55,989 nucleotides of DNA from a virus, in IMG/VR virus record IMGVR_UViG_3300020450_000029, positions 1-55,989 of that record. One strand, given 5' to 3'. A program made the translations under genes and the position numbers. How positions within the stretch are numbered: position 1 is the first letter of the stretch; each line of letters begins with the position of its first letter. Below the pieces are notes generated by a model, which searched no databases, was not told where the DNA came from, and worked only from the letters and a program-made list of their open reading frames with translations. Positions 35,474 through 46,954 of this stretch are shown here, piece by piece.

Positions 35474-35899
35474 ATGAGGGAGAATCCCATTTATACTATT
35501 ACTCCTCCTGACATGCATTTACCCGAAGCAGGACCAGTAATCACGGTGTTAAGCAGTGATCCAAATTTTGTAAAAGATATTGAACTGTTGTATAATGATT
35601 TTTTTAAAACAGTACCTATATCATTGTATCATACAAACGGACCAATAGAAGATAATAATTCTGTTTGGATAATTAGTATGATGAGATTTAGCGATACAAT
35701 ATTTGTTGATTTAGACAATATTACAGAACTTGGACTTTTCTGTGCATTACAAGCAAAGAAAAAATCTACAATATATTTTAATCGAAAAAACAAAAGGAAA
35801 AGCATAGTGAAAATTTTAAATACAGTTAATACTTGTGCAGTCTATGATAGTGTTGACGATTATGCAGAAGCGATGTTGCATGGCGTTGAAACACTTTAA
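35474..35899 (+). CDS. Hypothetical protein, 141 aa
   Basis: A Rossmann-like alternation of strands and helices (VITVLSSDPNFVKDIELLY, then SVWIISMMRFSDTIFVDL, then STIYFNRKNKRKS). No nucleotide-binding motif is clear. It overlaps the IF-3 gene by 20 bases and is probably in the same message. Confidence 0.65.
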   Translation: MRENPIYTITPPDMHLPEAGPVITVLSSDPNFVKDIELLYNDFFKTVPISLYHTNGPIEDNNSVWIISMMRFSDTIFVDLDNITELGLFCALQAKKKSTIYFNRKNKRKSIVKILNTVNTCAVYDSVDDYAEAMLHGVETL

Positions 35900-36416
35900 G
35901 AAACACAGAGTACCTGTAAAGCAGGTCAACGAGTTTATTACACATAATACTTTACGTGTGATTGACGACAACGGGCAGATAGGAATATTATCAAAGAATG
36001 ATGCATTAAATTTATCAGTAAAACGTAACATAGATTTAGTTGTAATAAATGAAAAGAGTGAACCTCCGGTTGCAAAATTATTGAATGCAGGAAAATATTT
36101 CTATGAACAAAAACGCAGAGAAAAAGAAGCGGCAAAAAAACAAAGAGAAAATCAAATTGTTGTTAAAGAAATGCAATTCAGACTAGGTATTGACCAACAT
36201 GATTTTGATACAAAGTGTAAAAGTATAATTAAATTTTTAGAGAAAAATAATAAAGTAAAATGTGTGATACGATATAAAGGCAGAGAAAACAGTAACAAAC
36301 AGGTAGGTTTTGGTATCATGGATCGTATCATGGAATTAGTACAAACTGCAACATGGGACACAAAACCAGCCATTAACGGAAACCGAATGATTGGTATCCT
36401 AATGAGGAAAGAATGA
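35880..36416 (+). CDS. infC: Translation initiation factor IF-3 homologue
   Basis: 178 residues, full IF-3 length. N domain (15-80): VNEFITHNTLRVIDDNGQIG, then IDLVVINEKSEPPVAKLLNAGKY. Lysine-rich linker (75-95). C domain (95-178): VVKEMQFRLGIDQHDFDTK, FLEKNNKVKCVIRYKGRE. IF-3 binds the 30S subunit, blocks 50S joining and checks start-codon pairing. The ATG lies inside the previous gene. It overlaps the bS21 gene by 4 bases, so initiation factor and ribosomal protein are coupled. Confidence 0.92.
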   Translation: MALKHFKKHRVPVKQVNEFITHNTLRVIDDNGQIGILSKNDALNLSVKRNIDLVVINEKSEPPVAKLLNAGKYFYEQKRREKEAAKKQRENQIVVKEMQFRLGIDQHDFDTKCKSIIKFLEKNNKVKCVIRYKGRENSNKQVGFGIMDRIMELVQTATWDTKPAINGNRMIGILMRKE

Positions 36417-36702: not shown

Positions 36703-37056
36703 TTAATAAGGCGACGGTCTTGTTAGAGTAGTGCAAGGAAACGCACATTTACCAGAGTGTGTAACTTGGCTAGTTAGGGGTGGTACCCAGGCATGGTTGC
36801 AGAAATGCGTTGTGCCACATCGCTCTCCCGAGCGGAACTAGGCTACCTGGCTTTGAGAATGGTATCTCGGTCGACGGTTTGGAGGTATACCCGAATCCTC
36901 CCTACTCACATATATCCTTAGTTGGAACTTGACAGTAATTGGATTACAGTCAGACAGATGCGATAAGAAATGGAATGCGTCTAGAGATATGAAAAACACA
37001 AACAAGAAAGGTTGGCACCGTAATATGCCCGCGAGAAGCCAAGGTTAGCTTCTCAC
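36703..37056 (+). ncRNA. Structured RNA C, about 350 nt, own promoter (no known family)
   Basis: No credible gene. Helices: GAGTA 36726-36730 with TACTC 36903-36907 closing a multibranch domain; GTGC/GCAC 36731-36746; TGCA-GAAA-TGCG 36798-36809 inside GGCA/TGCC; CGCTC/GAGCG 36821-36834; GAGA/TCTC 36855-36868; GGAGG/CCTCC 36881-36901. CTAGTT 36770-36775 with AACTAG 36836-36841 and CCAGG 36787-36791 with CCTGG 36846-36850 would cross as a pseudoknot. Further hairpins lie at 36930-36952 (broken by one A-A), 36957-36981 and 37033-37054. It lacks RNase P and SRP landmarks that I know. Confidence 0.65.
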
Positions 37057-37129: not shown

Positions 37130-37561
37130 ATGAATAGATTAACAACCCTCGACATTAATAAATTAACCCCCTATGCAGTAGGATTCGATAGAGTATTTGA
37201 CGACATGTTTAGATATATCGAACACAATACTAATAGCACAGGTTACCCTCCCTACAACATTATCAGAGATGGTGAAAAGTTTCAAATCGAAATTGCACTA
37301 GCAGGTGTAGACAAAAAAGATTTGGAAATCACAGTTGCTGATGGTGTGCTTACCATTGCACACAATCCAGAAGGTGAAGTAGAAACCGGTAAATGGGATT
37401 GGATTCACAAAGGTATTGCACAGAGAAGCTTCAAACGAAACTTCACATTAAGTGATGATATTGTTGTACAAGGTTCGAGAATGGAAAATGGTATGCTTTA
37501 TATCGAACTAGAGCGAATCATTCCAGAGGAAAAGAAACCAAAAACAATCGCTATCAAATAA
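37130..37561 (+). CDS. Small heat-shock protein Hsp20 (IbpA-like)
   Basis: 143 residues. The alpha-crystallin domain runs from about 45 to 130: YPPYNIIRDGEKFQIEIALAG, KKDLEITVADGVLTI, then GIAQRSFKRNFTL and ENGMLYIELER. The short C-terminal tail ends TIAIK, carrying an IxI motif for oligomer contacts. Hsp20 holds unfolded proteins; T4-like cyanophages often carry it. AAAGGAGA ribosome site. Confidence 0.92.
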   Translation: MNRLTTLDINKLTPYAVGFDRVFDDMFRYIEHNTNSTGYPPYNIIRDGEKFQIEIALAGVDKKDLEITVADGVLTIAHNPEGEVETGKWDWIHKGIAQRSFKRNFTLSDDIVVQGSRMENGMLYIELERIIPEEKKPKTIAIK

Positions 37562-37568
37562 AATAAAG

Positions 37569-37588
37569 TGGGGGTAGAAATACCCCCA
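37569..37588 (+). other. GC-rich hairpin between hsp20 and clpS
   Basis: TGGGGGTA with TACCCCCA around a GAAA tetraloop. There is no U tract, so it is more likely an mRNA stabiliser or processing site than a terminator. Confidence 0.55.
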
Positions 37589-37598
37589 TGAACCACGG

Positions 37599-37604
37599 TA
37601 AATA
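37599..37604 (+). promoter_or_regulatory. T4-type late promoter
   Basis: GGTAAATAGTG, six bases before the ClpS ATG. Confidence 0.45.
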
Positions 37605-37609
37605 GTGTT

Positions 37610-37909
37610 ATGGACACAGAAGTAAAAGACAAAACAACTAGTGAAATAGACTTTAAAAAGCCCAACCGTTATCAGGTGATACTGTATAATGATGATAAAA
37701 CACCTATGGAATTTGTGATTGAATTGTTAAAAAATGTTTTCACAAAAACTGATGAACAGGCAGAAAATATTACACTGTCAGTACACAATGATGGCAAAGG
37801 TGTAGCTGGCGTATATTACTATGAAGTAGCTGAGCAAAAAGTCCACGAAAGTATTTTAGTTAGTCGCAGTGCAGGTTTTCCGTTGACACTGGACATAGAA
37901 GAACTCTAA
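37610..37909 (+). CDS. clpS: ClpS-like adaptor protein
   Basis: 99 residues. The ClpS core is clear: [20 protein letters not shown], then [24 protein letters not shown]. The NDD-x-TPM pocket and the conserved His of SVHNDGKG, which bind N-degrons, are kept. ClpS steers ClpA toward N-end-rule substrates and away from ssrA-tagged ones. The N-terminal 18 residues are charged and flexible, as needed for ClpA engagement. With the phage tmRNA at 45.6 kb this suggests control of tagged-protein turnover (inference). Confidence 0.9.
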
Positions 37910-37922
37910 GAGAGAGGTTCCA

Positions 37923-39068
37923 ATGCGAATAGAAGATGACATCAAGTTAGACTATTCTGACGTGCTGATAAGACCAAAAAGAAGCACATTAGGTAGTCGA
38001 AAAGAAGTGCGAATGAAACGTAAGTTTACATTTCGCAATTATCATTCAGACATACCAGATACAATTAATTATGATTACGAAGGCATACCAATTATGGCAA
38101 GTAATATGGATGGCGTAGGCACATTCGAAATGGCTGATAGATTAGGTGAACTTAACACTTTTACATGTTTGGTGAAAACCTATAGTGTTGGTGAATTAGT
38201 AGGTTTTTTTGACGAGCAAGATGCACCTGCATGGAGACGTGATCATGTAGCAATGAGTATAGGTATTAAAGACGAAGATCAACAAAAATTTGCCAGTGTA
38301 TATGAACAAGTAGGAGATAATCTAAAATATGTATGTATTGATGTTGCAAACGGATACAGTCAAAGATTTATAGAATATGTTGCAGAATTTAGATTACGTT
38401 TTCCTAGAATAGTTATTATTGCAGGTAATGTTGTTACCGCAGATCAAACACAGGAGTTAATACTAAATGGAGCAGACATCGTCAAAGTCGGAATCGGACC
38501 AGGGTCGGTTTGTACGACTCGCATACAGACTGGGGTGGGCTATCCCCAACTTAGTGCGGTTATTGAGTGCGCCGATGCGGCGCATGGATTGGGTGGACAT
38601 ATCATTGCTGATGGTGGCTGTACTTGCCCTGGTGATGTGGCAAAGGCTTTTGCAGGTGGTGCCGACTATGTAATGTTAGGTGGAATGTTATCTGGACATG
38701 ATGAAGGTGGTGGTGAAATTGTTACCAAACATATTGCCACAGGTGGAGCATACAAAACACCCGAAGGAACATTTATTCCTTATTTTGAAGAACAACAATT
38801 TATACAGTTTTATGGTATGAGCAGTAGAACAGCAAATGATAAACATTTTGAAGGTCTAAAAGATTACCGTAGCAGTGAAGGACGTACAGTACTGGTACCA
38901 TACAGAGGACCAGTAATTACAACATTACAAGACGTATTAGGTGGAGTTAGAAGCACACTGACTTACGTTGGTGCTAACAAACTTAAACAACTTAGTAAAT
39001 GCACTACATTCATACGAGTCAACAATCAATTCAATCGAACATATGAAACTACAACTATTGGTAACTGA
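37923..39068 (+). CDS. guaC: GMP reductase
   Basis: 381 residues with a TIM-barrel IMPDH/GMPR signature. [20 protein letters not shown] (189-208, catalytic Cys197) and [24 protein letters not shown] match GMP reductase rather than IMP dehydrogenase, and no CBS domains are present. GMPR converts GMP to IMP with NADPH, recycling guanine nucleotides toward adenine. That suits an AT-rich phage genome (inference). Ribosome site GAGAGG. Confidence 0.92.
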
Positions 39069-39074
39069 TAAATA
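39069..39074 (+). promoter_or_regulatory. T4-type late promoter
   Basis: GATAAATAAT overlapping the guaC stop, 26 bases before the ATG at 39095. Confidence 0.5.
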
Positions 39075-39094
39075 ATTGTAACAAGGAAATAGCT

Positions 39095-39337
39095 ATGAGT
39101 GACTTAGATGTATTAAAACGTAATGCTGGCATAAATGAAGAAGCACAGATGATTCAAGTTAAAGTGATCAATAGTGGTTACGGAACTGACATGGGCATGA
39201 AAGATGCAGAAATTATTAGTCAAGAACTAGATGGTAACATGAAACCCATCTTAAAAGTTAGAATCAAAGACTTTAATATGGGCGACCCAGTTATTGCAGA
39301 ATGGCGCAATGACATGTGGACGGTGGACATGGACTGA
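39095..39337 (+). CDS. Hypothetical late protein, 80 aa
   Basis: AAGGAA ribosome site. Beta-rich C-terminal half (ILKVRIKDFNMGDPVIAEW). The stop overlaps the next ATG. Function unknown. Confidence 0.6.
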   Translation: MSDLDVLKRNAGINEEAQMIQVKVINSGYGTDMGMKDAEIISQELDGNMKPILKVRIKDFNMGDPVIAEWRNDMWTVDMD

Positions 39338-40599
39338 TGCGAGCTACGCAGTTTATAAAAGAAGCAGATCCTGGACAAGAAGCAAAAAAACTTCTTAACA
39401 TGATAAACACGCCTGAGATTATTGCAAAGGTAAAAGACTACCTTATGAAACTAGTGCCTAAAAAACAACCACAACAACAAGCTGAGCCAGTTGCAGAAGA
39501 TTTATCAGCAGACAAAGCCTTTGCAATGCAAGCAATTGATGAGATTACAAAAAGCGGTGATACACAACAACTGAATGCTGTTATTAGTTTCCTTAAAAGC
39601 TCTGAGATAATGGAAGAAGCCAAAAAGGCAGTGCTTGCTAATATAAGTCAAGGCGACAAAGGCGGATTTAGTCAAAAATTAGGACAAATGATACAGAACC
39701 TAAATGCTCCGTTTGAACAAAAGGTTGCATTTTTTAATCAAATGCAAAAAGGATTTTGGGACGGTTCTGATCTACTAAACAATCCAAGCGGAAATATATA
39801 CCAAAAATTACAAGCAGATCCTATTATGTCACAACTTGCTAAGCCAATGGCTTTACAATTTAGAGGTGCAATGGGATATGGTCCAGACCAAGGACCTGGT
39901 GAATTTTTACTCGCACTAACAGGAAAAGGTGTAGACCTAGCAGATAAAAGTGACTTAGTTATTGTAGATGGTGTTGGTGTTGAAGTAAAAGCTGACGGTA
40001 CTGCAAAAAGTCCAACAACAGGTAAAGCAAGTCGCAGTGGCGGAAGATTGTATTCAACTAGTGGATATGGAAATGCAAGTAGTGCAAGAATGGCAATGTA
40101 CAAAGCAATGGTTGACAGTGGTATTCCATCAGAAGAACTAAAACAATATGGTTGGCCCACTAGAGAAAAAGGCACCAAGTATGCTAATTTAAATTTTAAT
40201 GCGGCAGGTGTAGACAACATGAATGCACTGTTTTCAAAGTATACAGATAGAACAGGCGTACAAAGAATTATGTCTGCAATGATAAATTCATTGTATATAG
40301 AATTACCAAAAGGTATGGCAGACAAATTTATCAACAGTGTAGGTGCTGATGGTAGTATAAATTACAAATCAATGATGGATGAACTTATAGTATTAGCTCA
40401 TATGTATTATAAGCATCAAGAAGGACATGATAAAATTATGGTGTTCAATACTGCAAACGGAGATTACGTAATGATGGGCGACGAAGAGCAAACACGTAAA
40501 CTTATGCAGACAAACAAAATCAGAACAAACAGCGGACTTGACTTCTTTGATGATAGAAGTAAAGGCACTCCACAATTACTTACTGGTCAACTAACTTAG
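39337..40599 (+). CDS. PD-(D/E)XK-like late protein with capsid-targeting N terminus, 420 aa
   Basis: The ATG at 39337, overlapping the previous TGA, gives MRATQFIKEADPG, close to the T4 internal-protein peptide with IKE before Ala. A helical, Gln/Lys-rich segment follows. The nuclease-like core has Glu189 (GPGEFLLAL), Asp206 (KSDLVIVDG) and GVEVKAD with Glu216-Val-Lys218, the order E-D-ExK of restriction-type folds. A head-carried nuclease is inferred; cleavage is not shown. Confidence 0.6.
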   Translation: MRATQFIKEADPGQEAKKLLNMINTPEIIAKVKDYLMKLVPKKQPQQQAEPVAEDLSADKAFAMQAIDEITKSGDTQQLNAVISFLKSSEIMEEAKKAVLANISQGDKGGFSQKLGQMIQNLNAPFEQKVAFFNQMQKGFWDGSDLLNNPSGNIYQKLQADPIMSQLAKPMALQFRGAMGYGPDQGPGEFLLALTGKGVDLADKSDLVIVDGVGVEVKADGTAKSPTTGKASRSGGRLYSTSGYGNASSARMAMYKAMVDSGIPSEELKQYGWPTREKGTKYANLNFNAAGVDNMNALFSKYTDRTGVQRIMSAMINSLYIELPKGMADKFINSVGADGSINYKSMMDELIVLAHMYYKHQEGHDKIMVFNTANGDYVMMGDEEQTRKLMQTNKIRTNSGLDFFDDRSKGTPQLLTGQLT

Positions 40600-40609
40600 G
40601 TGTGCAAAT

Positions 40610-40790
40610 ATAACGCATACGTCATGCACTAAAAGCATGGCTTAGGTCATCCTTACTGCACTAAATATCAGTGAACAGTTCTGTTCACATACAGAGCGAC
40701 CTCAGCTCAGAAAAAATGAGTGGCACTTGGAAAGACAAGTGACGCCGGAAACAGACCGGGGTATTGCTTCCCTCAAGCATCCAAACAATA
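40610..40790 (+). ncRNA. Candidate structured RNA B, related to RNA A
   Basis: Helices: CATGC/GCATG 40623-40639; GTGAACA/TGTTCAC 40671-40688; CTCA/TGAG 40706-40720; CACTTG 40724-40729 with CAAGTG 40736-40741; CCGG/CCGG 40745-40759. The stretch GGCACTT, hairpin, ACG, GGGG, eight bases with GC, then CCTCAA matches 204-256 of RNA A in order. It may be free or the leader of the gene at 40808. Confidence 0.5.
40662..40667 (+). promoter_or_regulatory. Possible late promoter within RNA B
   Basis: ACTAAATATC; would start an RNA near 40675, at the GTGAACA hairpin. Confidence 0.35.
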
Positions 40791-40807
40791 TTAAAAGGAG
40801 ACAAGGT

Positions 40808-40978
40808 ATGACTAACTTAGTCAATGCACTTGTGAGCATGTTTGGTTCTTACAGTGCTAGAAACGCAGAACTAGAAATACTCACATACTGTAAAACAGAA
40901 TTTAAAAATAATTGGAAACACGAATACAATAGGCTCGTGAATGAATTTAGGCAAAAAGGAACATGGAAAATAAGATGA
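40808..40978 (+). CDS. Hypothetical protein, 56 aa
   Basis: The ATG at 40808 follows AAAGGAGACAAGGT; the open frame upstream overlaps RNA B and is unlikely to be coding. Helical, aromatic, ends KGTWKIR. Overlaps the next gene by 4 bases. Confidence 0.6.
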   Translation: MTNLVNALVSMFGSYSARNAELEILTYCKTEFKNNWKHEYNRLVNEFRQKGTWKIR

Positions 40979-41136
40979 TTAAAAAATTTTTTAAAAAACT
41001 ATTCACATTTGGTTGGGAACACCAAACCCCACAAGAATACTATTTGAGTCAAGCAACAGACTTGGTTGACTTAGAAAGAAGACAAAAAGAACTTGTATAT
41101 GGACATGTAAATCCAAACCTCAAAGGCTGGATATAA
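40975..41136 (+). CDS. Small protein resembling DUF3563, 53 aa
   Basis: Basic amphipathic start (MIKKFFKKLFTFGW) followed by YYLSQATDLVDLERRQKELV, the pattern of DUF3563 proteins in proteobacteria. Function unknown. Overlaps both neighbours. Confidence 0.55.
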   Translation: MIKKFFKKLFTFGWEHQTPQEYYLSQATDLVDLERRQKELVYGHVNPNLKGWI

Positions 41137-41327
41137 TGGCAACATTAGCGATGGAATATATAGTAAGTCCCCTTGGGGGATTCTTAATGGATTTTGCAAA
41201 CGGCTTTAGAACGCTATTCGAGGTCGTTAGTAAAAGTAGAGCCGCGGCTCAAATGACACAATTAGGCTATCACGAAGAGGCTAAAAGATTAATGATGGAA
41301 ATTAAAGAACTTAAAGGTGAAAAATGA
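41136..41327 (+). CDS. Hypothetical protein, 63 aa
   Basis: A mildly hydrophobic N terminus (EYIVSPLGGFLMDFANGF) and a charged helical end (EEAKRLMMEIKELKG). ATG overlaps the previous TAA. Function unknown. Confidence 0.55.
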   Translation: MATLAMEYIVSPLGGFLMDFANGFRTLFEVVSKSRAAAQMTQLGYHEEAKRLMMEIKELKGEK

Positions 41328-41779
41328 CTAAAGATCTTAAAAAACTTAAAATTACAGCTCTGTTTATTACACTTCTAATGGCAGTATTAGTAGCACCAAG
41401 TGTATATGCAGAAGACATGAATATCGACATGTTAAACAAAAGAGACGATGGTGCAAAAATGGTATACAGTGTAGATATTGCACGTATTGATGTAGGTGAT
41501 ACAATTACTTGGTTACCAACATCAAAAGGACATAATGTCCATTTCCTAGCAGGTCCAGATGGATGGGATATACCAAAAAAATCCAAACAAAACAAAGAAG
41601 TGGCATTGACATTTGATGTTCCGGGTGTATACTTGTATCAGTGTACTCCACATGCAACAATGGGTATGATTGCTTTGGTGGTAGTTGGAGATGATATGTC
41701 CAATCTAGATGCCATTAAGAAAATGAAGATCCGTGGTAAAAGCAAAAAAGTTTTCAAGAAACTACTTGGAGAACTATAA
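41324..41779 (+). CDS. Pseudoazurin (type 1 blue copper protein)
   Basis: 151 residues. Signal peptide (KITALFITLLMAVLVAPSVYA) with cleavage after residue 29. The cupredoxin domain has all four copper ligands: His70 (KGHNV), Cys107, His110 and Met115 in YQCTPHATMGM. The C-terminal extension is Lys-rich, as in pseudoazurins. These periplasmic proteins carry electrons to nitrite reductase or cytochrome oxidases. In a phage it would be an auxiliary redox gene (inference). Overlaps both neighbours, so it is in a small-gene operon. Confidence 0.9.
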   Translation: MTKDLKKLKITALFITLLMAVLVAPSVYAEDMNIDMLNKRDDGAKMVYSVDIARIDVGDTITWLPTSKGHNVHFLAGPDGWDIPKKSKQNKEVALTFDVPGVYLYQCTPHATMGMIALVVVGDDMSNLDAIKKMKIRGKSKKVFKKLLGEL

Positions 41780-41841
41780 TGTGGCCATACACAGATGAAG
41801 AATGGGAGGCAATCAGCCTCCCAAAACAAACGGAGAAATAA
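41779..41841 (+). CDS. Tiny protein, 20 aa
   Basis: ATG and TAA overlap the neighbouring genes by one base each. Peptide begins MWPYTDEEWEAIS. Short proteins beginning MWPYT(E/D)EE occur in alphaproteobacteria as I recall. Function unknown. Confidence 0.45.
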   Translation: MWPYTDEEWEAISLPKQTEK

Positions 41842-42257
41842 TGTTAAAAAAGTTACTTACAGTGGGTGACCGACTGCCTGAGTTTTGTCTCAGTCATTGG
41901 TTACTGAGAATACCATTAGCAATAGTGTTTTTACAACAAGGTTTGAGTAAATTTCCTGTGACAGTTGAAGGTGCAGAAAGTTTTGATTTACCTTACATTG
42001 TTTGGTGGTTTGCCAGCTATGGTGAAGTAGGCGGAGGAATTGGTCTAATAGTTGGTGGTTTACTTATTAAATGGTGGGAAGATATTGGCGACATAATTAC
42101 ACGATTCAGTGGTATTACAATTTGTAGTATAATGACTGGTGTAATTTGGGTTGGTGAACCTGCTAGCTTGTGGGATGTCATACTTTATGATAATCTGCAT
42201 GTGTTTCTATGGGTAGGCGGTTTGATATTTGCACTAAGAGGTAACAGATTAACATGA
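41841..42257 (+). CDS. DoxX-like membrane protein, 138 aa
   Basis: Four hydrophobic segments. LLRIPLAIVFLQQGLSKFP and EVGGGIGLIVGGLLI fit the DoxX pattern of small quinone- or redox-linked membrane proteins. The ATG at 41841 overlaps the previous TAA. Next to pseudoazurin, a link to respiratory electron flow is possible but not shown. Confidence 0.65.
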   Translation: MLKKLLTVGDRLPEFCLSHWLLRIPLAIVFLQQGLSKFPVTVEGAESFDLPYIVWWFASYGEVGGGIGLIVGGLLIKWWEDIGDIITRFSGITICSIMTGVIWVGEPASLWDVILYDNLHVFLWVGGLIFALRGNRLT

Positions 42258-42889: not shown

Positions 42890-43073
42890 AGAACAAGCAC
42901 AACTGGAAGCAGAAGTAACATTTGAAAAGTTTATAAATTATTCAAAAAGAGGATTAGTATGGATATTAATTTTTCTTTGCGTTGTTGTGTTTGCTTGTAA
43001 TAATGGTGTAGAAACAGGCCCTAATGCAACTGGTAGTAAATATGATGGCTCAGTGTACGAACCTACAATCTAA
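42873..43073 (+). CDS. Single-TM protein, 66 aa
   Basis: Acidic N terminus (REQAQLEAEVTFEKF), one membrane helix ending in Cys (VWILIFLCVVVFAC), then an Asn/Gly/Thr tail. The layout recalls small oxidase-associated subunits, but a lipoprotein-like end is also possible. Convergent with the lipase gene. Confidence 0.55.
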   Translation: MDLNPREQAQLEAEVTFEKFINYSKRGLVWILIFLCVVVFACNNGVETGPNATGSKYDGSVYEPTI

Positions 43074-43837
43074 AGAATAATCATATTATCTGTTTGATTT
43101 TTAATGCGTTTAATATAGTTGGGCATGCCGTGGTCGTATATGCTGTCAAACCATTGACGTTTTCTAAAAGCGGCCCTGTATCCTCTAAATCTATCTTTGA
43201 TACGTTGCCAAGCACTGGCATTTCTAATTTTTCCATATGTATTAATATAGTGTAATTCACCTGCGTGTTTGTACCACATGAATGCAAACGGAACTCTTGG
43301 AACTATATCATTGTTGTTTACAAATCTATACAATGAAAATCTACTATTGAACTCCTTTACCCAACCGGGTGTACCAACTCTAGGCGATCCATAATTGTAA
43401 CAAACTGTACCTTCTGGTAGTCTACTACAAGCAATGGTGCTCATTGCACCACCTAAACTGTGTCCGCAGGTATAGGCTTGTGTAAACTTACGTTTGGTTA
43501 TCCATGCTTCTATTTGTTCCCAAATATCATCTACTTCACGTTTGAATCCTTTGTGTACTCTACCCGCACCTAATTCATTGCGAACATGAAGTGCATTTAA
43601 GTCTGCTTTTATATCATTAAACTGTGTAGGTTCCGTACCCCTAAACGCCAACACAATGTAATCATCTTTTGCCATACCATATGCTTGGGCACCATCAACA
43701 TTAAAATATTTGATATTCTTATATCCCATAGCAGAGGCAGTTTTTTTGAATTGTTTTTCTTCTTGGTATGCTAGATTACTAAGTTCTGCAAAATGTTCTG
43801 CTGTTCTATAACTAAACTCTTTTTTTACGTTTACCAT
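43070..43837 (-). CDS. Class 3 lipase-like protein, 255 aa
   Basis: Starts at MVNVKKEF. Alpha/beta-hydrolase features of the lipase-3 family: LAFRGTEP (64-70, oxyanion region), DxxA-type segment DIKADLNAL, GHSLGGA (Ser127), NNNDIVPRVP (Asp177) and DHGMPNYI (His236). It should cleave acylglycerols or phospholipids; a role in lysis or in membrane use for phage assembly is inferred. No signal peptide is seen. It overlaps the upstream MscS-like gene. Confidence 0.85.
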   Translation of the reverse strand: MVNVKKEFSYRTAEHFAELSNLAYQEEKQFKKTASAMGYKNIKYFNVDGAQAYGMAKDDYIVLAFRGTEPTQFNDIKADLNALHVRNELGAGRVHKGFKREVDDIWEQIEAWITKRKFTQAYTCGHSLGGAMSTIACSRLPEGTVCYNYGSPRVGTPGWVKEFNSRFSLYRFVNNNDIVPRVPFAFMWYKHAGELHYINTYGKIRNASAWQRIKDRFRGYRAAFRKRQWFDSIYDHGMPNYIKRIKNQTDNMIIL

Positions 43838-44273
43838 TTTTGATCTCCTCAATAGCGTCCTTATTAGCACTTATTTTTACATCTTGATTTCTGTCAATCA
43901 ATCCTTGTAGTTTTTCAGCTTTCTCTTGTTCAGTATCTAAGTGGAGATCTTTGTTAATAACTTTCTCTAATTTTAACATAGGAATACGTTCGTTTGGAAC
44001 ATAACGCCAAGTATATCCTTTTTCACTGTATACACCAAATACAGTTTCACTTAATCCTATTTTTACAATAAGTGCATCTTGTCCATCTAGTATTACTGTG
44101 TCGCCTTCGTTAAAACTTTTGTTCATTTTGAAAGCCATACCTTTTGCTATCTTAGTAGCAAAGTCTTTAAACCATAATGTAATGACAAGAAGTAGCAATG
44201 CACTGATAAAGGGCATTAGCAAATTGGTGATCTCTAAGCCCACACCAGAGGCACTCATTATTTCTGTTTCCAT
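43812..44273 (-). CDS. MscS-like beta-domain membrane protein, 153 aa
   Basis: One long hydrophobic helix (LLMPFISALLLLVITLWF) is followed by NEGDTVILDGQDALIVKIGLS and VPNERIPML, the pore-lining/beta-domain region of MscS channels. The C terminus is Lys-rich. It is a minimal version (E. coli MscS is 286 residues). It may alter ion balance or bind host channels. Late reverse promoter at 44292. Confidence 0.65.
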   Translation of the reverse strand: METEIMSASGVGLEITNLLMPFISALLLLVITLWFKDFATKIAKGMAFKMNKSFNEGDTVILDGQDALIVKIGLSETVFGVYSEKGYTWRYVPNERIPMLKLEKVINKDLHLDTEQEKAEKLQGLIDRNQDVKISANKDAIEEIKNGKRKKRV

Positions 44274-44556: not shown

Positions 44557-45098
44557 ATATGAAGAAACAATTTTTATGTAGCTTGCCAACACTTGGAGAT
44601 TCAAATTTCAATCAAAGTGTAATATATGTAGAGAATCATGACGGCGATGGTGCTAAAGGTTGGATCATTAATAAAAAATTAGACAACCGAGTTTCAGTAA
44701 GATTGCGTAAAAGTATACAATTAGGCATTCAAGCTGATATCTATTATGGCGGACCAGTGGAAACAAATCAATGTTATGTATTGCACACAAGAGATATTAT
44801 GCTTGCTCAGAGTACAAAGATAAATGAAAATTTATGTGTCACTAGAGATAAGGCAATTATTACTACATTGAACGAAAATAGATTTCCGCAATACTACAGA
44901 ATTATTATTGGTAGTTCAAGTTGGGGAGCTGGACAGTTAGAAAGTGAATTATTGGGTAGTAGAACAAACGGTGCTAGTAGTTGGTGCAACTTTCCATACA
45001 CAGAAGAATTTATGTGGAAGATAAATCCTGAGCAACAATGGAATACTGGTATCGATCGGAGTGCAAAAAGTAAAGTAACGAATTACTTAAACTTTTAA
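44553..45098 (+). CDS. YqgE/AlgH family protein
   Basis: 181 residues. FLCSLPTLGDSNFNQSVIYV, GAKGWIINKKL, YYGGPVETNQCYVLH, and GSSSWGAGQLESEL are the hallmark blocks of AlgH/YqgE (UPF0301). The family's biochemical function is not settled; it is linked to transcription control in some bacteria. A phage copy is unusual. Upstream of tRNA-Trp on the same transcript. Confidence 0.88.
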   Translation: MNMKKQFLCSLPTLGDSNFNQSVIYVENHDGDGAKGWIINKKLDNRVSVRLRKSIQLGIQADIYYGGPVETNQCYVLHTRDIMLAQSTKINENLCVTRDKAIITTLNENRFPQYYRIIIGSSSWGAGQLESELLGSRTNGASSWCNFPYTEEFMWKINPEQQWNTGIDRSAKSKVTNYLNF

Positions 45099-45102
45099 TT
45101 TT

Positions 45103-45176
45103 ATGGGTGTAGTGTAATGGTAACACGTCAGTCTCCAAAACTGAAGACGGGGGTTCGATTCCTCCCACCTGTGCCA
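45103..45176 (+). tRNA. tRNA-Trp (anticodon CCA)
   Basis: Acceptor ATGGGTG pairs with CACCTGT (G-U pairs included), D stem GTGT/ACAC, anticodon stem TCAGT/ACTGA with loop CTCCAAA, T arm GGGGG-TTCGATT-CCTCC, encoded CCA. Confidence 0.9.
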
Positions 45177-45192
45177 ATTAGAATTAATAACA

Positions 45193-45381
45193 ATGAATAT
45201 AGATTTTAAAGAAGCATGCAGAATATTTTGGTTAACCAAAGGACATTTATATAATGTAAGTGATGAAACAATTCTTTCCTGTTATGATAGATACTTCAGA
45301 AGATTATGGGGTAACAATGAAAGAACAGTATATGGAATTGATGGCTTCGAAGAAGCATATCAAAAAAGAATTGAAAAGTGA
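45193..45381 (+). CDS. Hypothetical protein, 62 aa
   Basis: A small aromatic, charged protein (KEACRIFWLTKGHLYNVSDE). No clear ribosome site; it may be read through from the tRNA-Trp transcript. Stop overlaps the next GTG. Function unknown. Confidence 0.5.
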   Translation: MNIDFKEACRIFWLTKGHLYNVSDETILSCYDRYFRRLWGNNERTVYGIDGFEEAYQKRIEK

Positions 45382-45536
45382 TAGTTGAATGTGCAAAATG
45401 TGAAACATCATATGATAATCAAACATATTATTCATGTCCAAAATGTCAGCAAGAATTTGATTTTGAATTTGGATTGCAAAATGCAAAAGAACAAAAACAA
45501 TACAGAGAACAAATAAAAGTTGACATTATCAAATAA
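45378..45536 (+). CDS. Small zinc-ribbon protein, 52 aa
   Basis: GTG start overlapping the previous TGA. Two knuckles, CAKC and CPKC, separated by 14 residues, then a charged helix. The end overlaps the tmRNA promoter. Function unknown. Confidence 0.6.
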   Translation: MIVECAKCETSYDNQTYYSCPKCQQEFDFEFGLQNAKEQKQYREQIKVDIIK

Positions 45537-45550
45537 TACTGTTATAAATA
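45520..45550 (+). promoter_or_regulatory. Overlapping sigma70 and late promoters for tmRNA
   Basis: TTGACA (45520-45525), 17-base spacer, TATAAA (45543-45548). The -10 lies within TATAAATA (45543-45550), an exact T4 late promoter, so the tmRNA could be made early and late. Confidence 0.65.
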
Positions 45551-45553
45551 TTT

Positions 45554-45616
45554 CGTAAACGTTGAAGCAACGTGAACACATACTGGACCCGGGGGCGGTA
45601 CCCGGCGCCTCCACCA
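45554..45616 (+). ncRNA. ssrA: tmRNA acceptor piece (circularly permuted)
   Basis: This upstream part has ACGTTG/CAACGT, then a T arm GGACCCGGGGGCGGTACCCGG read as CCGG around the loop, and the acceptor strand CGCCTCC (45606-45612), A, and CCA (45614-45616). CGCCTCC pairs with GGGGGCG at 45655-45661. The order acceptor before coding piece is the alphaproteobacterial two-piece layout. Bases 45617-45654 (hairpin AGAC-GAGA-GTCT) would be removed. Confidence 0.88.
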
Positions 45617-45654
45617 AAACACTTTTAGACGAGAGTCTTTTTATGGGGGCGAAA

Positions 45655-45822
45655 TAGGATCGACAGGTGTACTAGTGAAGTGGAGTTTACCGGATGACTG
45701 CGTAATAGGTCATTTAAACTAAATGCAAACGATAACTTTGCACCTTCAGATTACGCCTTAGCGGCATAATGCTGTCGGGTTGGCAACTGACCTAGGAACA
45801 GAATAGTTGCACAAAAACCACA
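45655..45822 (+). ncRNA. ssrA: tmRNA coding piece with ssrA tag
   Basis: Starts GGGGGCGAAATAGGATCGAC, the usual tmRNA 5' consensus. The resume codon GCA is at 45725 and the tag frame ends with TAA at 45767-45769, giving ANDNFAPSDYALAA after the charged Ala. The ALAA end should be a ClpXP/ClpAP degron; the ANDNFA start is typical of alphaproteobacterial tags. tmRNA with SmpB frees stalled ribosomes. No smpB is seen in the window. Confidence 0.92.
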
Positions 45823-45826
45823 AATT

Positions 45827-45916
45827 AGTATAATCTATATAATATGTGGTCGATAATAAGGAAAATAAAGTAAATACAGCAGACAACCTCGTAGATAGCG
45901 TTTGGTTGTTTTTTTA
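45827..45916 (+). terminator. tmRNA transcript end: hairpin plus rho-independent terminator
   Basis: ACCACA 45827-45832 with TGTGGT 45845-45850 is a first hairpin. ACAACC 45883-45888 with GGTTGT 45904-45909, followed by seven T, is the terminator. A late-type TAAATA core lies between them at 45871. Confidence 0.7.
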
Positions 45917-45933
45917 TATACAAGGAAATTATT

Positions 45934-46704
45934 ATGACTCGTTTACTAGCTATTCTATTAGCTACAGCTTTTAGCACTATGGCTGTTGCAGAAACAACTG
46001 CACCTGTTGGCCCAACTGTTGGAGGAAAAGTAGAAGTAGAAATTAAAGAAAATGCATCAGACGACTGGGGTGCAAAAACAACATTTGGTATAGGAATTAA
46101 CCACAATGACATAGCTTTCGGAGGAATTTCATTGGAAGCAATTGATAGTGATACGTTAACAGTTAACGAATGGCAAATGGGTACTAGTTTTGGTGAAACA
46201 ACTGTTTCAGTTGGAGACCAGGGCGATATTTGGATTGGCGCCGAAGGCGAACACACTATTGCAAATCCAAAAATGGACGAAAGTGTTATCGTTAGTATGG
46301 GCAATGCCGCAGTTGCAGTAGAATTCGGCGACTGGAAAAATGACGTAAGTGATATCGAAGCTATTGCAGGATCATATTCAACTGATGTGGGTGAATTTGG
46401 TATGACAGTAGCAGGTGACTATGATAGAGTTACTGAAAAATACACACTGGGTGGTCGAGTAGATATGTCTGGTGCAGGCATGGCTGTAACATATTCAGAA
46501 TCAACTGAAAAACTTGCTTATGAATTAGATAGTTCAAGTGGAGCAATATCAGCATACTTAAACGGTGACGAAGACGACATGCTCAAAAATGCTGGCGGTG
46601 GATACACATGGGATATCAATGGCATGGATGTAGAAGCTGGTGCAAACTACGATATCGACTTAGGAGATATTTCACCAAAATTAACTATGAGTTTTAGCTT
46701 CTAA
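45934..46704 (+). CDS. Outer-membrane porin-like protein, 256 aa
   Basis: Clear signal peptide (RLLAILLATAFSTMAVAE, cleaved near residue 19). The mature part alternates beta strands with Gly/Asp turns and ends in SPKLTMSFSF, with the terminal Phe that marks BAM-assembled beta barrels. It resembles small alphaproteobacterial porins in style. A phage-borne porin could change nutrient uptake or mask the receptor against other phages (inference). A late core lies at 45871 and AAGGAAA precedes the ATG. Confidence 0.75.
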   Translation: MTRLLAILLATAFSTMAVAETTAPVGPTVGGKVEVEIKENASDDWGAKTTFGIGINHNDIAFGGISLEAIDSDTLTVNEWQMGTSFGETTVSVGDQGDIWIGAEGEHTIANPKMDESVIVSMGNAAVAVEFGDWKNDVSDIEAIAGSYSTDVGEFGMTVAGDYDRVTEKYTLGGRVDMSGAGMAVTYSESTEKLAYELDSSSGAISAYLNGDEDDMLKNAGGGYTWDINGMDVEAGANYDIDLGDISPKLTMSFSF

Positions 46705-46708
46705 GCTC

Positions 46709-46737
46709 TTGACTTTTTACTATAAGTATACTATATT
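46709..46737 (+). promoter_or_regulatory. Sigma70-like promoter
   Basis: TTGACT (46709-46714), 17-base spacer, TATATT (46732-46737), leading to the gene at 46766. Confidence 0.6.
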
Positions 46738-46765
46738 AAGTATATAACAAAAATAGGAGTTAGCA

Positions 46766-46954
46766 ATGTTTGCAGGTTATGAAGGTCATATCGCAGTTGC
46801 AATATGTTTATTTTGTACATGGCTAGGATATAGACAAGGAAAAATGAACGGAATTGCATCTACACTGGACAGTATGATTGAATTAAAATTGCTTAAAATT
46901 CTCAATAATGGAGAAATAGTTGCTGGCCCAAAACTTAAACAAAACAGTGATTAG
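46766..46954 (+). CDS. Single-TM protein, 62 aa
   Basis: AGGAG ribosome site. N-terminal membrane helix (HIAVAICLFCTWLGY), then a helical soluble part. Bracketed by a promoter and a terminator, so it is a one-gene unit. Function unknown. Confidence 0.65.
   Translation: MFAGYEGHIAVAICLFCTWLGYRQGKMNGIASTLDSMIELKLLKILNNGEIVAGPKLKQNSD

Follow-up and report, generated by a model that had tools for sequence, protein, structure and literature searches.

Does the viral contig analysed here carry a working tmRNA gene of the permuted, two-piece kind, and what is the meaning of the intervening segment (IVS) between its two pieces? The window, by which we mean the whole stretch of 55,989 bases, is an IMG/VR viral record. 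Identity of the locus was examined with covariance models. In Rfam, the alphaproteobacterial model (alpha_tmRNA, RF01849) matched positions 45516–45813 with 134 bits against a gathering score of 50 (E 1.9e-36), and the general model tmRNA_permuted matched 45555–45769 with 119.6 bits (E 7.9e-23). Both matches are far above chance, and an outcome with no match or with a one-piece form only is excluded. The alpha model scores above the general permuted model, in agreement with the alphaproteobacterial layout proposed in the initial annotation. ARAGORN likewise predicts the permuted form (tmRNA*) at 45520–45860 with the tag ANDNFAPSDYALAA, so that the two-piece permuted structure and the tag suggested earlier are both borne out. 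The location in a phage also stands, as helicases, a primase, a ligase and a ribonucleotide reductase are encoded on the same IMG/VR contig.

All parts of the gene lie on the plus strand, and the acceptor piece precedes the coding piece, as had been read from the letters. The acceptor piece (45556–45616, its 5' end placed from the promoter) comprises a 5' hairpin, one P2 strand, the T arm, the acceptor strand CGCCTCC and ACCA, with CGCCTCCACCA at 45606–45616. The coding piece starts with GGGGGCGAAA at 45645 and extends to about 45811 (the model ends at 45813); it contains the acceptor strand GGGGGCG, the D region, the other P2 strand, the tag and the 3' pseudoknot. In the predicted fold, GGGGGCG and CGCCUCC form an acceptor stem of 7 bp with a G-U at the third pair, followed by ACCA. 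The tag frame with its TAA occupies 45725–45769 and exhibits a resume codon and a hydrophobic end in -LAA. The pseudoknot (45777–45810) consists of GGGUU (45777–45781) with GACCU (45789–45793) and of GCAACU (45783–45788) with AGUUGC (45805–45810). Between the pieces lies an IVS of 28 nt (45617–45644), a hairpin with a GAGA loop and no ORF, which is predicted to stack on the acceptor stem. The removable insert had been given as 38 bases and the start of the coding piece as 45655, which is 10 nt off.

The outer limits of the gene also had to be revised. What begins at position 45520 is a TTGACA −35 box and not the RNA, and the stretch 45814–45916 lies beyond the tmRNA: a spacer is followed there by a hairpin that resembles a terminator and has a U tract (45881–45913, −10.1 kcal/mol, z −2.4). 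The promoter TTGACA-N17-TATAAATA (45520–45550) is the single match of this pattern in the window, against 0.06 expected, and transcription should therefore start near 45556. Its −10 element is at the same time the T4-late-type TATAAATA. A scan for consensus promoters and terminators picked up neither signal, the promoter because the scan accepts only T as the last base of the −10 box, the hairpin because of its loop size. Five matches of TATAAATA occur in the window (2058, 20572, 27190, 30038 and 45543), all on the plus strand and at or near gene ends, as expected of T4-type late promoters, with a count that is not above chance. Upstream of the tmRNA lie a tRNA-Trp(CCA) at 45103–45176 (ARAGORN, Rfam), an ORF of 62 aa at 45193–45381 (family FamA, see below) and a small CxxC...CxxC ORF of 52 aa read from the sequence (45378–45536), whose GTG start overlaps the FamA stop and whose 3' end contains the −35 box of the tmRNA promoter.

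A 32-nt acceptor core (45585–45616) is identical in 109 viral contigs of IMG/VR. Since phage-borne permuted tmRNAs are this common and one from the phage Melnitz has been published, the tmRNA of the window is intact but ordinary, belongs to a kind already described and has its slot empty. Taken by itself, it extends the list of phage tmRNAs by one, and more weight falls on the comparison with its relatives. From 188 parsed viral loci 130 distinct IVS of 8–388 nt were obtained, and 47 of these contain a cargo ORF, called either as a member of a recognisable family or as a near-full-length frame. The window, lacking a selected ORF in its IVS, falls outside this class of tmRNAs with a coding IVS. 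In a sample collected by the acceptor sequence only, and thus not chosen for the IVS, cargo was present in 22 of 98 contigs, or in 17 of 61 IVS when each distinct one is counted once, about a quarter. Of 111 viral tmRNA loci sharing the acceptor sequence, 43 were not called by ARAGORN; in most of these the IVS is long or the locus is truncated at the end of a contig. The escape of loci with a long IVS explains how tools miss such genes.

In all 47 cargo-bearing tmRNAs the T stem and each of the seven pairs of the acceptor stem are intact, and a complete tag is found in at least 40 of them. Of 20 cargo ORFs tested, 14 have a motif resembling a ribosome-binding site ahead of the start. One IVS (L205) holds two ORFs, and the 142-nt IVS of Melnitz contains a frame of 54 aa, beginning MFKWLSKTRLVV, which is not annotated as a gene. 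The encoded proteins gave almost nothing with Pfam, PHROGs and PADLOC; FamJ reached DUF2061 with E 1.8e-4, just under the cut-off. We consider it very probable, judging from these comparisons, that the IVS of permuted tmRNAs in marine phages serves as a cargo slot for small protein genes of at least 11 families, some of them almost confined to it and one (FamH) behaving as a cassette that recurs in different tmRNA backbones and also at other locations, and that the proteins are expressed from the precursor before or during cutting. A stable non-coding RNA gene would then double as a gene carrier in phages.

Cargo ORFs overlap the mature RNA, and control by its processing may be possible. In several families the stop is a TAG at nucleotides 11–13 of the mature coding piece, and for such ORFs cleavage by RNase P would leave a nonstop message. 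The ORF could accordingly be regulatory, its product being tagged by the mature tmRNA and the protein accumulating only when maturation or trans-translation lags. The use of this TAG by families B, C, G, H, I and part of A speaks for the idea, as does the arfA gene of E. coli, described in PMC10107115 as a nonstop message targeted by tmRNA. Families D, E, F, J, K and the ORF of L073, on the other hand, stop inside the IVS, and ending at whichever stop comes first may be incidental. We regard such regulation as unlikely.

Far less probable is that the frames arise by chance in a non-coding spacer or from assembly artefacts. Some observations would suit this explanation: the long IVS of L050, L164 and L183 are clearly without ORF, lone short ORFs are not significant by themselves, and a clear start codon is missing from the FamA member L158. 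However, pN is well below pS in divergent pairs of all 11 testable families, with pS 0.58–0.71 and pN 0.08–0.11 for FamK, 0.69–0.86 and 0.28–0.42 for FamA (dN/dS about 0.2), and 0.84 and 0.15 for FamF. Changes between divergent pairs fall mostly at third positions. The Melnitz ORF is identical in four genome records, FamG was recovered from separate metagenomes in an IVS each time, FamI matches phrog_16066, and homologues of FamI and of the Zn-finger family of L204 are adjacent genes in HMO-2011. Coding of the IVS ORFs in the relatives is thus strongly supported by their pattern of substitution and recurrence.

The cargo families differ in how closely they are tied to the slot. FamG occurs in a tmRNA IVS in 13 of 13 cases and, on inspection, FamK in 26 of 32 and FamH in 37 of 43. 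FamA is a common phage gene, with two of its best 80 matches inside an IVS; the free-standing ORF of the window shares 43–53% identity with the IVS ORFs of L072, L105 and L073. An AlphaFold model of FamA is all-helical (pLDDT 79) and gave no match in the PDB, and an AbiEi hit of the window ORF (E 0.012) was taken as chance. The two HMO-2011 ORFs mentioned above (NC_021864, L251; 1336–1653) are unannotated and lie between the ribonucleotide reductase gene and N386_gp19. Copies of FamH are about 80–90% alike in nucleotides, while the tmRNA backbones or flanks around them can be unrelated, and the family also occurs at sites without tmRNA (L418, L422, L436 and L452). This pattern looks like cassette exchange. 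In L446 and L450, the FamH cassette stands directly before further IVS sequence within one tmRNA gene; in L453 and L454, it follows an acceptor-like sequence and no coding piece lies behind it; the next elements are a tmRNA promoter and an acceptor piece separate from these.

Bacterial IVS were sampled as well. Of 289 alphaproteobacterial genomes, 270 contain a permuted tmRNA; only two of the matches listed exceed 300 nt. The sampled bacterial IVS mostly measure 10–67 nt and none is coding (the long case L361 lay outside the parse); L362, with 165 nt, has no convincing ORF. Within a collection of 84,980 species CGCCTCCACCATAAACAC is present in 17 contigs, one of them with a cargo ORF. In this contig, L230 (PBDU01000009.1, from 1478 onwards), which belongs to a MAG labelled Euryarchaeota, the IVS of a permuted tmRNA holds a FamK ORF. 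L230 is probably a misbinned phage contig, and misbinning of this type may be the source of some nominally archaeal tmRNAs in PMC11915505. Within this sampling, the cargo habit looks viral.

To return to the window, selection on the tmRNA itself is suggested by comparison with its viral relatives. The second pseudoknot helix (GCAACU/AGUUGC) covaries, with 62 distinct helices in 121 viral tmRNAs and an average of 6.8 bp compared to 5.0 with partners swapped. TATAAATA is found upstream in 106 of 143 viral tmRNAs, compared to 2% in shuffles. The ends of the IVS also pair (UAAACAC/GUGUUUA and variants, atop the acceptor stem), on average with 9.7 bp versus 6.7 when swapped. The covarying pseudoknot and conserved promoter, together with intact stems and tag, argue for a selected gene. 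We put the probability at roughly 93% that the window contains a working phage ssrA of the alphaproteobacterial permuted form which uses host processing, charging and SmpB, the IVS being a variable slot across related viruses. That it is a passenger or a decaying host-derived copy with no function for the phage is very improbable, since phages can indeed pick up tmRNA genes but here every stem, the tag and the pseudoknot are intact, the phage-type promoter is conserved and the tmRNA is retained across widely diverged viruses.

Starting from the gene structure, tag, conserved stems and pseudoknot and conserved promoter established here, we infer the following course for a working phage tmRNA. 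The RNA would be transcribed from its own promoter, and pairing of the IVS ends on the acceptor stem would yield a tRNA-like precursor. Host tRNA-processing enzymes would then remove the 28-nt IVS, RNase P cutting before 45645 and a 3' processing nuclease after the CCA at 45616; these cuts, after CCA and before GGGGG, are assigned from known tRNA processing. Acceptor and coding pieces would remain paired after removal of the IVS. The acceptor would presumably be charged by the host AlaRS, host SmpB would bring the charged tmRNA to ribosomes stalled during infection, and (A)ANDNFAPSDYALAA would be added to the stalled products, leading to proteolysis. The slot, empty in the window, would elsewhere hold small protein genes under purifying selection.

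SmpB was found neither in the window record nor in the 43 records behind related loci, nearly all of which are fragments, a result that fits the use of host SmpB. A ClpS adaptor is encoded at 37610–37909 (Pfam, E 5e-28); of 24 related viral records with a tmRNA, 4 encode one too. ClpS steers ClpAP away from SsrA-tagged substrates, and the phage protein may for this reason have a bearing on the fate of tagged proteins. Other genes of the window include an IF-3-like protein (35835–36416) and, at 37130–42257 and 43070–43870, HSP20, an IMPDH/GMP reductase domain, a plastocyanin-type copper protein, DoxX and a class 3 lipase; a manA RNA motif (Rfam, 75.6 bits) lies at 36704–36911.

The window is probably one piece of a large genome, because jumbo phages (PA5oct group, Phosso, Atu_ph07) have the closest counterparts of its UvsW-like and DnaB-like helicases. 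AlgH (44553), used as a probe, returned no relatives. Among the tmRNAs found, the nearest to that of the window are L094, with 86% over 267 nt, and L064, with 90% over 216 nt. The host lineage, which the initial annotation had taken from the layout, is only weakly indicated by it: Melnitz, a phage of OM43, has a permuted tmRNA of the alpha type (PMC9004378), which makes host assignment by tmRNA type unsafe. Neither is the tag ANDNFAPSDYALAA a host signature, as exact copies recur in two other viral tmRNAs (L034 and L209).

Phage-borne permuted tmRNA is thus already known, and we did not find the coding IVS of its relatives described; a literature search that covered few subscription journals brought up no account of IVS-borne protein genes in permuted tmRNAs. 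A phage set of 2021 comprised 53 two-piece tmRNAs, 50 of them aquatic (PMC9004378). The closest published case is that of the Methylophilales phage Melnitz (MZ577097), whose ssrA, similar to that of the window, is phage-borne, permuted, alpha-type and marine, with a host, OM43, that is not among the Alphaproteobacteria (PMC9004378). Its 142-nt IVS with an unannotated ORF contrasts with the 28 nt found here, and as a cultured phage with a coding IVS it makes the cargo slot directly testable. A glutamine riboswitch was reported with the Melnitz ssrA (PMC9004378), whereas none scored near the tmRNA of the window, where the Rfam matches within 44900–46800 at E ≤ 5 are tmRNA and tRNA only. Melnitz is furthermore T4-like (Kyanoviridae), unlike the jumbo phages nearest to the window helicases. 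With the alphaproteobacterial ssrA of the Caulobacter type (RF01849) the window shares piece order, acceptor stem, T-loop consensus, the ANDN start of the tag and the 3' pseudoknot; it differs in being viral and in its phage-type promoter with TATAAATA. Extra content in the IVS of permuted tmRNAs has a parallel in PMC11915505, where one IVS holds a tRNA-Ala gene and another a repeat; for permuted forms, the text as searched mentions no IVS with a protein gene. The same paper reports homing-endonuclease genes within group I introns of tmRNA. The IVS proteins matched no homing endonuclease among the Pfam and PHROGs families searched. Similar to these introns, the cargo-bearing IVS places a protein gene in a segment removed from the pre-tmRNA; unlike them, it is no intron, and its removal would proceed by tRNA-type processing.
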